From contig DGUG01000106.1 of NCBI GenBank assembly GCA_002394535.1, positions 1 to 7,739 of the forward strand: a DNA stretch of 7,739 nucleotides. Direction: 5' to 3'. The DNA comes from Lachnospiraceae bacterium UBA4316 (GTDB lineage: Bacteria; Bacillota; Clostridia; Lachnospirales; Lachnospiraceae). The notes beneath the pieces were generated by a model. That model searched no databases. It was not told the origin of the DNA and was given only the letters and a program-made list of their open reading frames with translations. The translations under genes were made by a program, and so were the position numbers. Below are positions 536 through 4,156 of this stretch, piece by piece (position 1 is the stretch's first letter; every line of letters begins with the position of its first letter).

Positions 536-1885
536 ATGGTTCTGGATTACAACATTTTTCTTGAGGTTGCTGTAATACCTCTTGATATGATCATATATAC
601 GTATCTGGTGCTTCGTTATACGAACATGACGAAGATCAATATCGCGTTCCGGCGGTTTGCGTTTGTTGTTATGGCCGCCGACATATTTGATGTTGCGACG
701 GCGATAGTCACGAGTGCACACGAAAGGGTACCTAATCCCGTTCACTATTTTTTCAACATAACCGATTCGCTTCTGGCATCACTTTCCGCATTTACATTTG
801 TGTATTACATATACGCGTATTCCGACATGGGGCACGAATCAAAGATCAAGCGTAACATCATGAACTTTACGCTCCTTACGATCAACTATCTGCTTCTCCT
901 TACGAACCCGTTAACCGGACTGGTGTTTACATACGACAGCGCGGGAAACTATATTCACGAGATTCTCTTCGTACCTGTTGCATACGGCTTTCCGCTGTTG
1001 TTCTTCGTGATCGGAAGCGTTTACATGTTCAGGCACAGGGAGCGTTACCGCAAGACGCAGTTAAGGGCGATGATTGCGGCGATACTTGTTGCGGCCGTAT
1101 TGTTTTCGCTCCAGATGATCTTCTTCGATAATGTGCTGATCACCCTGTTCATGGCTTCGATGGGCGTACTTGTCATATTCGTATCGCTTGAGACGCCGGA
1201 TTATCTGAGCCTGTTAAAGACCAAGGCGGAACTGAACGAAGCAAGGGAGCAGGCGGCTGCCGCGTTTGCCAAGGAGAAGCTCTCCAAGCAGGTGATGCTT
1301 GCCCTGTCCAAGGCGGTTGATGCCAAGGACCACTACACGAACGGTCATTCCGAACGTGTGGCAAAGTATGCGAGGGAGATCTCAAGGAGAATGGGCAAAT
1401 CAGAGAAGGAGCAGGAAGAGATATACGAACTCGGTCTGCTTCACGATATAGGCAAGATCGGGGTTTCCGAAGCGATCATCAACAAGGTCGGAGCCCTTAC
1501 GGATGATGAGTTCAACCAGATCAAGGAACATACGGTAATAGGCTGCGATATATTAAAAACAATCGATGAGATGCCGTGGCTCTGGGAAGGCGCAAGATGG
1601 CACCACGAGAGGTTTGACGGCAAGGGATATCCCGACGGACTGTCGGGCGTAAGCATCCCCGAAAGAGCCCGTATAATCTGTCTTGCCGACTGTTATGACG
1701 CAATGACGAGCAAACGTTCGTATTCCAAGCCGCGCCGGCAGGAAGAAGCCAGAGCGGAGATAGAAAGATGCTCCGGCACACAGTTTGATCCGGATATCGC
1801 AAAGCATCTTCTGGATATGATCGATGAAGATGCAAACTATGAATTAAGAGAACCGGAAGAGGAAAATGCGGATGAGATTAAGTGA
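536..1885 (+). CDS. Membrane-anchored HD-GYP domain protein (probable c-di-GMP phosphodiesterase)
   Basis: A 449-residue protein in two parts. The N-terminal ~218 residues contain about seven hydrophobic segments (roughly 7-28, 40-61, 74-96, 108-130, 143-165, 176-197, 199-218), like the 7TM sensor modules placed before signalling domains in Clostridia. A charged helical linker (about 225-252, probable coiled coil) leads to a complete HD-GYP domain. Its landmarks are GHSER with H271, LLHDIGKIG with H303-D304, HHERFDGKGYP at 356-366, LADCYDAMTS with D385, and GTQFDP. All expected metal ligands and the GYP signature are present, so it should be catalytically competent. The family hydrolyses cyclic di-GMP to pGpG or GMP, and some members act on cGAMP. 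The sensor ligand cannot be read from sequence. The start is preceded by AAAAGGTG at a usable distance. The stop overlaps the start of the broken DHH gene by 14 bases, suggesting translational coupling in the original operon. Confidence 0.92.
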   Translation: MVLDYNIFLEVAVIPLDMIIYTYLVLRYTNMTKINIAFRRFAFVVMAADIFDVATAIVTSAHERVPNPVHYFFNITDSLLASLSAFTFVYYIYAYSDMGHESKIKRNIMNFTLLTINYLLLLTNPLTGLVFTYDSAGNYIHEILFVPVAYGFPLLFFVIGSVYMFRHRERYRKTQLRAMIAAILVAAVLFSLQMIFFDNVLITLFMASMGVLVIFVSLETPDYLSLLKTKAELNEAREQAAAAFAKEKLSKQVMLALSKAVDAKDHYTNGHSERVAKYAREISRRMGKSEKEQEEIYELGLLHDIGKIGVSEAIINKVGALTDDEFNQIKEHTVIGCDILKTIDEMPWLWEGARWHHERFDGKGYPDGLSGVSIPERARIICLADCYDAMTSKRSYSKPRRQEEARAEIERCSGTQFDPDIAKHLLDMIDEDANYELREPEEENADEIK

Positions 1886-1961
1886 TCTTGAAGGATACGA
1901 TAAGATAACGATACAGTGTCATGACAATCCGGACCCGGATGCGCTTGCATCGGCGTTATAG
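1872..1961 (+). pseudogene. DHH-family phosphoesterase, N-terminal 29 codons only, cut off at a junction
   Basis: An ATG at 1872, eight bases after AGAGGA (1858-1863) and overlapping the HD-GYP stop, opens a frame that reads MRLSDLEGYDKITIQ then CHDNPDPDALAS before ending in TAG at 1959. The segment H-D-N-P-D-P-D-A-L-A-S (residues 17-27) is motif I of DHH phosphoesterases, whose aspartates bind the catalytic metal. Related clostridial proteins start in nearly the same way and continue with S-G and an alternating hydrophobic segment for about 300 residues. Here homology stops after ALAS, at the point where the antisense TIR gene also loses its expected continuation. What remains cannot be functional. 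It is the start of a real gene because the motif, ribosome site and overlapping start all agree; the call rests on family memory, not an alignment. Confidence 0.72.
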
Positions 1962-2770
1962 CCTGATGCGGCATTATCCGGAAGGACGGACCGTACCGCG
2001 TAGATCGAATCTTTAAGAAGACCTTCGGACAGGAGAGAAGCGGATGCGTCTGCCATGGCTCCCGCATATTTGTCCGCGATGATTTTGTTCTGTCTGCTGA
2101 TCTTGATCGTGAATATAAGACATGTTGCCGCAAATACGGTAAGGATTGCAAAGGCCGTCGATGCGATTGCAATACGGCGTCTTACCTGACGCTCGCGGTG
2201 ACGCTGCCGCAGGTCATCGTAATTGAGGCCGAACATCGCGGCATAAAGCTTTAAGACAACGTTATCGAGTTTTTTGAGACGATCCCTGTTATTATCTCCT
2301 CTGCAGTCGGCCGCAAGAGGTTCACGCTCAACCGTGACCGTAATGTCGTTGCCGTTTGCATCCTTTGCGGCAACATCTTCATGAAGCATTATCTCGGGAA
2401 ATGACTCCAAAGGTTCGCCCTCTGCAAGAACGAGAAGAACATGCTCGCGGTCGTGAGTCTGTATGAATGTCTCGATCTCTTTTAAGCACCATCTGGATTC
2501 GCGAAGGCGCGGAGTACAGATGACGATCAGAAACCGGGAGTTATCAAGCGCTTCGGAAATGGGATCGGACAGATTTCCGGAAAGCGGAAGTTCCGCCTCG
2601 TCACGGAATATCCTCTCGATCTTTGTTTTCCACGTTGTGATCTTTTTGATCACGGATGAGGGCATCCTGTAGCTTTCAAGTTTTTTGTGGAGATTTTCCG
2701 ATACGAACGAATCAAGCTCGCAATGCCTGTAGCTTATGAACGCATCGTATCTGACGTTTTCAAGTGACAT
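1919..2770 (-). CDS. TIR domain protein with one transmembrane helix, C-terminally truncated
   Basis: The 283-codon frame starts with a clear TIR domain (residues about 7-128). Visible motifs are YDAFISYRH (box 1), FRDEAELPLSGN (box 2 region), FLIVICTPR, and ESRWCLKEIETF. In the last of these, E98 sits where the catalytic glutamate of NAD+-cleaving TIR domains lies. A basic stretch (RQRHRERQVRRR, 188-199) precedes one hydrophobic helix at about 199-222, so the TIR domain is probably cytoplasmic and the rest outside. Related clostridial proteins continue with a long repeat or WD40-like region, beginning with a segment like LLSEGLLKDSIYAVRSVLPD (here 247-265). In this gene that region stops at about residue 275, and the last eight residues (SASGSGLS) are antisense DHH sequence. 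The start is supported by GGAGG nine bases upstream and lies 24 bases after the pyrI stop. Function (defence, cell death or signalling) is unproven. Confidence 0.85.
   Translation of the reverse strand: MSLENVRYDAFISYRHCELDSFVSENLHKKLESYRMPSSVIKKITTWKTKIERIFRDEAELPLSGNLSDPISEALDNSRFLIVICTPRLRESRWCLKEIETFIQTHDREHVLLVLAEGEPLESFPEIMLHEDVAAKDANGNDITVTVEREPLAADCRGDNNRDRLKKLDNVVLKLYAAMFGLNYDDLRQRHRERQVRRRIAIASTAFAILTVFAATCLIFTIKISRQNKIIADKYAGAMADASASLLSEGLLKDSIYAVRSVLPDNAASGYNADASASGSGLS
1938..1969. other. Junction joining the truncated DHH and TIR genes
   Basis: Left of about 1950 the plus strand reads as a DHH phosphoesterase; right of about 1950 the minus strand reads as a TIR-transmembrane protein, and each stops making family sense here. 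Bases 1947-1953 (GCATCGG) fit both genes: Ala-Ser-Gly in the DHH frame and Ala-Asp-Ala in the TIR frame. This is a microhomology of about 7 bases. The site is also rich in small inverted repeats: GATGC (1938-1942), GCATC (1947-1951) and GATGC (1965-1969), which allow short fold-backs. No longer repeat, target duplication, integrase gene or GATC ligation site is visible. A tail-to-tail join on microhomology fits a genomic inversion, or a chimera made during amplification or assembly. Confidence 0.6.
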
Positions 2771-2794
2771 CTTCCGTATCCTCCGTTCGACCTG

Positions 2795-3223
2795 TTATAT
2801 CCGGGAGTACGTCTCCTCACAGTATTTGCATCTGTATGTCTCTGTTGCGGGATCGGTCAGTACGAATATGTGATCGAGTTCCTGCTCTATGCTTGTGATG
2901 CATCTGGGGTTCTTGCACTTGATCACGTTTTTGATCTCCTTGGGCAGATACAGTCTTTTCTTTTCAACGATCTCGCCGTCCTTTATGACATTGACCGTGA
3001 TCTTATGGTCAATGAATCCGAGCACGTCAAGGTCGAGCATATCGATCGGACATTCGACTTTGAGGATGTCTTTCTTGCCCATCTTTTCACTCTTTGCATT
3101 CATGATCATGGCAACGGTACAGTCGAGTTCGTCGAGCTTTAAGTCGTGATATATCCGGAGGCTTTCGCCCGCATTCATATGATCGAGAACAAATCCCTCT
3201 TCAATTTTTCCTACGTTTAACAT
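2795..3223 (-). CDS. pyrI: Aspartate carbamoyltransferase regulatory chain
   Basis: A 142-residue protein matching the regulatory subunit of class B aspartate carbamoyltransferase. The N-terminal allosteric domain (about 1-95) contains the H-M-N-A-G and G-K-K-D-I-L-K stretches that line the nucleotide-binding site in the family. The C-terminal zinc domain carries four cysteines, C103-X4-C108 and C132-X2-C135, the expected zinc ligands that contact the catalytic chain. E. coli PyrI is 153 residues, so the length is close to normal. Its presence predicts a nucleotide-regulated holoenzyme rather than a bare catalytic trimer. The ribosome site AAGGAGA overlaps the pyrB stop, and the genes are 15 bases apart, typical of coupled pyrBI expression. 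Confidence 0.96.
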   Translation of the reverse strand: MLNVGKIEEGFVLDHMNAGESLRIYHDLKLDELDCTVAMIMNAKSEKMGKKDILKVECPIDMLDLDVLGFIDHKITVNVIKDGEIVEKKRLYLPKEIKNVIKCKNPRCITSIEQELDHIFVLTDPATETYRCKYCEETYSRI

Positions 3224-3238
3224 TTGATCTTCTCCTTA

Positions 3239-4156
3239 TCAGTCAGCCAGTTCCAAAAGAGTAAGTATAAGCGCCATGCGGATGTACATGCCGTATTTTA
3301 CCTGCTTGAAATACATGGCGCGTTCATCTTCGTCGACCTCGACGGATATCTCGTTGACACGGGGCAGAGGATGGAGCACCATCATATCTTTCTTGGCGAG
3401 CGTCATCTTTTCCTTGTTCAGTATGTAGAAATCTTTGAGTCTTACGTAGTCTTCTTCGTTGAAGAATCTCTCACGCTGTACTCGTGTCATGTAGAGTATA
3501 TCAAGCTCGGGCATGACGTCGTCGAGTTTTATGACTTCCTTGAACTTGATCCCGTTCCTGATCAGGACGTCTTCTCTTATGTAGTCCGGAATGCGAAGCT
3601 CGGGAGGGGAGATAAATACGAAAGAGACATTCCTGTATCTTATCAGCGCATTGATGAGAGAGTGTACGGTACGTCCGAACTTCAGATCGCCGCAAAGTCC
3701 GATCGTCATATCCGAAAGACTTCCCTTTAACGAGCGTATCGTCATAAGGTCGGTCAGTGTCTGTGTGGGGTGCTGATGACCACCGTCTCCGGCGTTGATC
3801 ACAGGTATCCATGATTTGCTTGCGGCAACCATCGGGGCACCTTCCTTGGGATGGCGCATTGCACAAATGTCGGCGTAGCTTGATATTATCCTTATGGTAT
3901 CCGATACGCTTTCGCCCTTTGCCGCGCTTGAAGAATCCGCGGTGGCAAATCCGAGTACCTGTCCTCCCAGACGAAGCATTGCGGATTCAAAAGATAATCT
4001 TGTTCTTGTTGACGGCTCATAGAAGCATGTGGCAAGTATTTTGCCGTCGCACTTATGGGCATATTTTGCCGGATCCTTCTGGATGTCATCGGCAAGGTCC
4101 ATAAGAGTATCCAACTCTTCCACGGAAAAGTCCATGGGACTCATTAAATGGCGCAT
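3239..4156 (-). CDS. pyrB: Aspartate carbamoyltransferase catalytic chain
   Basis: A 305-residue protein that condenses carbamoyl phosphate with aspartate, the committed step of de novo pyrimidine synthesis, in the cytoplasm. The carbamoyl phosphate site is visible as [11 protein letters not shown] (47-57), followed by SAAKGES (77-83), MRHPKEGAP (100-108), [12 protein letters not shown] (125-136), [11 protein letters not shown] (156-166), RVQRERF (225-231) and HPLPR (262-266). All expected active-site residues are present, and E. coli PyrB is 311 residues. The start is supported by a GGAAGGGAGAA ribosome site. Upstream, only about 30 bases separate the start from a strong hairpin terminator, so transcription is likely to involve read-through or attenuation. 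pyrI follows 15 bases downstream. Confidence 0.97.

Follow-up and report, generated by a model that had tools for sequence, protein, structure and literature searches.

DHH/DHHA1 phosphoesterases are a described family that includes NrnA, exopolyphosphatase-related proteins and manganese pyrophosphatases, and bacterial TIR proteins with a C-terminal β-propeller or WD40-like part form a second described group. Bacterial genomes are also known to lose the DNA between short direct repeats, by illegitimate recombination. All three bear on a contig from a Lachnospiraceae genome in which a DHH gene and a TIR-transmembrane gene, read from opposite strands, are both cut at one point. Their intact relatives match the two described groups: the DHH protein of one relative (G023) has the same domains as the DHH/DHHA1 phosphoesterases, and the intact TIR proteins carry a TIR domain followed by a mostly β part. 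The window, meaning the whole stretch of DNA that was analysed, is an entire contig (C90) of 7739 bases from a draft genome (G000; 2.12 Mb, 235 contigs, 70.86% complete). Here we compare it with related genomes and argue that the junction is probably the scar of one deletion between natural neighbours.

Results

Two truncated genes meet at the junction

The features of the window that matter here are the following.

536..1885, plus strand: gene for an HD-GYP protein (Pfam HD_5, 113.9 bits), its stop codon overlapping the DHH start
1872..1961, plus strand: 5′ remnant (29 codons) of a DHH/DHHA1 phosphoesterase gene, recognised by N-terminal matches to DHH proteins and by alignment
1946..1955, no strand assigned: putative deletion junction, with the breakpoint placed to within this interval by codon comparison with relatives
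1919..2770, minus strand: TIR-transmembrane gene (283 amino acids), cut after residue 275, recognised by Pfam TIR_2 (PF13676) and by its relatives
2795..3223, minus strand: pyrI, aspartate carbamoyltransferase regulatory chain (Pfam PyrI and PyrI_C)
3239..4156, minus strand: pyrB, aspartate carbamoyltransferase (Pfam OTCace_N and OTCace)

The DHH remnant starts at ATG 1872 (an alternative ATG lies at 1866), overlaps the HD-GYP stop codon at 1883-1885 and ends at TAG 1959-1961, preserving the motif HDNPDPDALASA. That such a DHH start, overlapping the HD-GYP stop, runs into a truncated TIR-transmembrane gene on the other strand had been proposed from the sequence, and our analysis confirms it. 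The 29-codon frame is indeed DHH-like: its N-terminus shares 76-86% identity over 28-29 residues with the DHH proteins from the ten other genomes that match best (best E 1.5e-12), and window positions 1872-1955 match residues 1-28 of the G023 DHH protein at 85.7%. With a full-length relative as the query, homology stops at 1955. The open DHH frame is 500-552 amino acids long in nine of those ten genomes and 318 in G002, which carries a frameshift. The fragment in the window gives no Pfam match, and its 29 codons hold neither a complete DHH nor a complete DHHA1 domain. The intact G023 protein has both Pfam domains and reaches the cutoff of no NCBIfam equivalog, and in the PDB the DHH family profile picks up remote relatives, 4py9 and 8iu7 among them, that cover roughly residues 6-166. 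The DHH enzyme is thus predicted to be lost in this strain except for its first motif.

On the minus strand, the window protein scores 39.1 bits against TIR_2, above the curated cutoff of 28, and has a single hydrophobic stretch at about residues 199-226. Homology to relatives breaks at residue 275 (base 1946) with both full-length queries and in 7 of 10 alignments with relatives, a count that excludes the remnant gene of G010; the other three extend to residues 278 (G033), 281 (G002) and 283 (G031). The last eight residues are encoded by the opposite strand of the DHH sequence. The closest relative, G034, is 80% identical over residues 1-276 and has a frame of 800 amino acids, and the window protein does not follow its clade's plan of about 800 residues with a mostly β C-terminal part. 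In a low-confidence model of a full-length relative (mean pLDDT 57.8, pTM 0.39, from four sequences), the TIR domain is followed by this mostly β part after about residue 304. Since the model is of low confidence and its TM-scores to the query are 0.12-0.22 among the 50 PDB matches listed, we call the C-terminal part of the intact relatives only a likely β-propeller; WD40 scores below the Pfam cutoff in an intact relative. The predicted product of the window gene would accordingly be a TIR domain with one membrane helix, lacking the likely β-propeller domain.

The 275 TIR codons that were kept are open and deviate at 3 of 149 otherwise invariant columns, compared with 0-12 in nine relatives. 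We found no surplus of changes at invariant sites in these codons, which suggests that the loss is either recent or has left a stub that is still in use.

In related genomes the two genes lie side by side and converge

The comparison of gene order that the original prediction had called for was run on 61 genomes, 37 of them from the same genus and the window's own genome included. Close relatives were defined as same-genus genomes whose TIR gene reaches 70% identity or more across at least 264 residues (n=10). In nine of the ten (G034, G001, G023, G014, G024, G033, G018, G002 and G021) a DHH gene lies beside the TIR gene, tail to tail, in the order and orientation seen in the window; in G021 the DHH gene is cut by the end of the contig. 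G031, the remaining relative, has its DHH match on a different contig, and its TIR gene extends past the end of its own. The sequences that flank the junction thus adjoin in the undeleted state, with order and orientation unchanged, in all nine close same-genus relatives that could be tested. In an eleventh genome, G010, only a remnant of the TIR gene is present, and the 14 kb examined contain no DHH gene.

Where both genes are whole, the distance from start to start is 3862 bases in G034 and G001, 3881 in G023, 3898 in G014 and 3895 in G018, and their coding ends overlap by 8 bases in all of these except G023, where the overlap is 16. The corresponding distance in the window is 899 (1872-2770). 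Because gene order and orientation are the same and the distance is 899 instead of 3862-3898, one deletion of about 2963-2999 bases would be enough to explain the junction.

Damage to one member of the pair is seen in several relatives as well. The TIR gene of G010 (L103:6741-7256) has an in-frame gap, with about residues 120-728 missing, and that of G033 (L099:1544-3520) likewise has an in-frame gap. Frameshifts occur in the TIR gene of G024 (L097:592-2959) and in the DHH gene of G002 (L101:9829-11378); both are draft genomes, and either frameshift is possibly an error.

The junction bases suit both reading frames

The sequence GCATCGG at 1947-1953 had been said to fit both reading frames, and it does; at the protein level the overlap is wider, with about nine bases (1947-1955) compatible with both the DHH and the TIR frame. 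In the DHH frame these bases encode A-S-A; in the TIR frame, with base 1946 added, they encode A-D-A. Residues A26, S27 and A28 of the DHH protein, and N272 and A275 of the TIR protein, are invariant in seven relatives. The orthologous DHH and TIR sites of eight relatives agree, in register, at 8, 7, 5, 7, 5, 5, 5 and 5 of 9 bases; about 2 of 9 would be expected for unrelated bases by a simple estimate of 9 times one quarter, made with no shuffle. The alternating GATGC/GCATC repeats to which the original prediction drew attention are present (1938-1942, 1947-1951 and 1965-1969), but their proposed significance does not stand: all are 5-mers, and no inverted repeat pair of at least 7 bases was found in 1850-2050.

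A second sequence carries the same junction, and the lost parts are not seen

The top protein match to the TIR stub, P0001, has 283 residues and an identical junction tail, and differs at residue 121, where it has S and the window protein L. Eight of 11 relatives have E or D at this position (window 2408-2410, minus strand). The P0001 cluster has two member sequences on three contigs, the longest of 8521 bases, compared with 7739 for the window contig. The junction is therefore present in at least two non-identical sequences. P0001 could come from another assembly of the same sample; as a sequence that differs from ours, it would argue against an assembly accident. A natural TIR protein of about 280 residues ending at this point had been named as an observation that would speak against truncation. 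P0001 has that length, but it ends in the same antisense DHH sequence as the window protein, which points to the same event and not to a natural protein end.

The original prediction also proposed searching the assembly for the missing DHH remainder, the TIR C-terminal part and a reciprocal junction. None came to light: queries with DHH codons 29 onward and with 500 residues of the TIR C-terminal part gave 0 matches in the source genome (71% complete) at E up to 1, and the same two queries matched 5 of 5 control genomes. A small match on contig C6 was set aside, as it sits in a 248-codon frame that looks by eye like an unrelated gene. The absent remainders would fit a deletion, and nothing in this 71% complete genome, the missing share of which could hold the lost parts, points to an inversion with its reciprocal junction. 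We also looked for an intact DHH gene of the same species by its N-terminal 28 residues and recognised none among the best 120 of 3316 matches. The best of those listed were P0194 (26/28, of the ADALASG kind) and P0153 (25/28), and none of the matches with the HDNPD motif among these 120 was identical at all 28 residues.

The outer neighbours vary among relatives

Orthologues of the HD-GYP protein occur in G030 (76%) and G023 (73%); both have other neighbours there, and the DHH-TIR pair lies beside neither (0 of 2). Nor does a TIR gene lie beside pyrI at any of 23 loci in relatives, three of which end downstream at a contig end. The slot downstream of pyrI (window 2771-2794; L107-L129) is variable: the gene that follows pyrBI in relatives may be a gene of 418-425 amino acids (proA-like by eye), an HD-GYP gene, bPH-folC or others. 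Missing outer adjacencies of this kind are common for accessory genes and are no evidence of a chimera, but synteny cannot vouch for either the HD-GYP/DHH or the TIR/pyrI border.

DHH and TIR-membrane genes are recurrent neighbours in Lachnospiraceae

The genome collection yielded at least 495 confirmed relatives of the TIR part, of which the best 80 loci were kept. A DHH gene directly adjoins the TIR gene in 16 of them: convergent in five (L135, L137-L140), in tandem with the DHH gene first in ten (L173-L175, L189, L200, L210-L214) and divergent in one (L198). The five convergent loci belong to genomes already counted among the relatives (G021, G014, G033, G018, G001). The DHH gene at the adjacent loci is of the DHH/DHHA1 type and encodes about 500 amino acids. 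At L203 it lies about 5 kb from the TIR gene, and 63 of the 80 loci have no DHH gene within the flanking DNA examined, some of it cut by contig ends. These include L136 (TIR 77%), with none within 6.0 kb upstream and 5.4 kb downstream, and L141-L146 (TIR 65-72%), with none in the flanking DNA examined. Conversely, of 20 DHH places found at E <= 1e-6, the window's own counted, 12 have a TIR match no more than 4 kb away. None of 57 control loci around HD-GYP and pyrI has a DHH gene, the control flanks being shorter (196 kb compared with 886 kb in total).

DHH and TIR-membrane genes are thus neighbours more often than expected, and in this respect, the one that counts here, the description of the two as unrelated genes does not hold. 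The occurrence of three arrangements, at 16 of the best 80 loci, suggests a functional pair. In PADLOC, the TIR proteins find only weak matches and the DHH protein none at E up to 0.01. A literature search found no description of a DHH-TIR gene pair; in the excerpt of PMC2743648, "DHH" is the name of an agency.

Discussion

We favor, at a probability of roughly 0.87, one deletion of some 3 kb that likely removed the far parts of two convergent neighbours and whose ends likely lay in short matching sequences. An ancestor of this strain would have had an intact DHH-TIR pair, and the event would have removed all of the DHH gene beginning at about codon 29, together with the part of the TIR gene past residue 275. 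The loss may have occurred by slipped replication or by microhomology joining between the copies of a direct repeat of 7-9 bases. A-S-A in the DHH frame and A-D-A in the TIR frame, read from opposite strands, would push the two sites towards similar bases, and the codons of relatives suggest that the sites agreed at 7-9 bases in this lineage. We infer the repeat at both ends because the search for an intact allele from this species recognised none. In five of the eight relatives, agreement between the sites is limited to 5 of 9 bases. Further observations count against the deletion: the pair is not universal, L136 and L141-L146 having no nearby DHH gene; the closest TIR relative is just 80% identical; and the relatives compared have the pair in places other than beside the HD-GYP orthologues or pyrI.

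A chimeric contig or an inversion that unites two unrelated places would account for two genes cut at a single point on opposite strands, and the outer adjacencies unseen in relatives might be taken the same way. A random join would not, however, recreate the convergent arrangement, in the same orientation, of all nine testable relatives. An inversion is set aside, as no flank is reversed relative to relatives, and the source genome (71% complete) gives no sign of a reciprocal junction or of the remainders. The natural neighbour order and the recurrence of the junction in P0001 make a chimera of non-neighbours, which the original prediction had raised, extremely improbable, and of its other suggestion, a recent inversion or deletion, the deletion stands and the inversion does not. 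The warning that any operon reading across 1950 would be void falls away with the chimera, even though the outer adjacencies remain unseen in relatives. A subtler artefact is that a chimeric molecule or an assembly shortcut skipped about 3 kb between true neighbours in a genome that is in fact intact, which the 235 contigs of the draft and the mere 7.7 kb of the window contig make conceivable. Against this, a non-identical second sequence, necessarily another contig, has the same junction; the words of short-read assemblers are longer than the 7-9 base overlap; and the skipped parts are unmatched elsewhere in the assembly. We regard this artefact as quite unlikely.

Selection might have kept the short TIR protein, a TIR domain with a membrane helix, as a working form; this reading is an addition to the deletion rather than an alternative to it. 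The open codons and few changed invariant columns would suit such a role, as would the presence of the short form in two sequences and the same-clade TIR gene of G010 with its large in-frame gap. A recent loss would look identical, however, and the two short sequences have L or S at residue 121, where most relatives have E or D; we consider a working form doubtful.

With a single deletion as the preferred reading, the suspected chimera is cleared and the contig can be read across 1950; annotation should record the two stubs as what a deletion left of a genuine pair of neighbours. The deletion itself is an ordinary kind of event, and the recurrent DHH-TIR neighbourhood is the more interesting lead, its function being testable. 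We offer tentatively, as a possibility that we would not bet on, that the DHH gene and the TIR-membrane-propeller gene constitute a two-gene module of Lachnospiraceae, as yet undescribed, that serves in signalling or defence, occurs in three arrangements and is prone to breakage, and that the deletion disarmed both partners here and left the TIR effector domain readable. If the pair is a module, joint loss would be expected when one partner is harmful or useless without the other.

Set beside the known systems, the locus stands out by what has been lost. The intact relatives of the DHH gene encode proteins of about 500 residues, and the window copy is 29 codons only; compared with TIR proteins that have a β-propeller or WD40-like part, the window copy is without everything past residue 275. 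With deletions between short direct repeats the locus has in common that two gene parts were lost together and that a short sequence fitting both genes, presumably the one copy kept, lies at the junction; it differs in that the repeat at both ends is deduced here from the codons of relatives.
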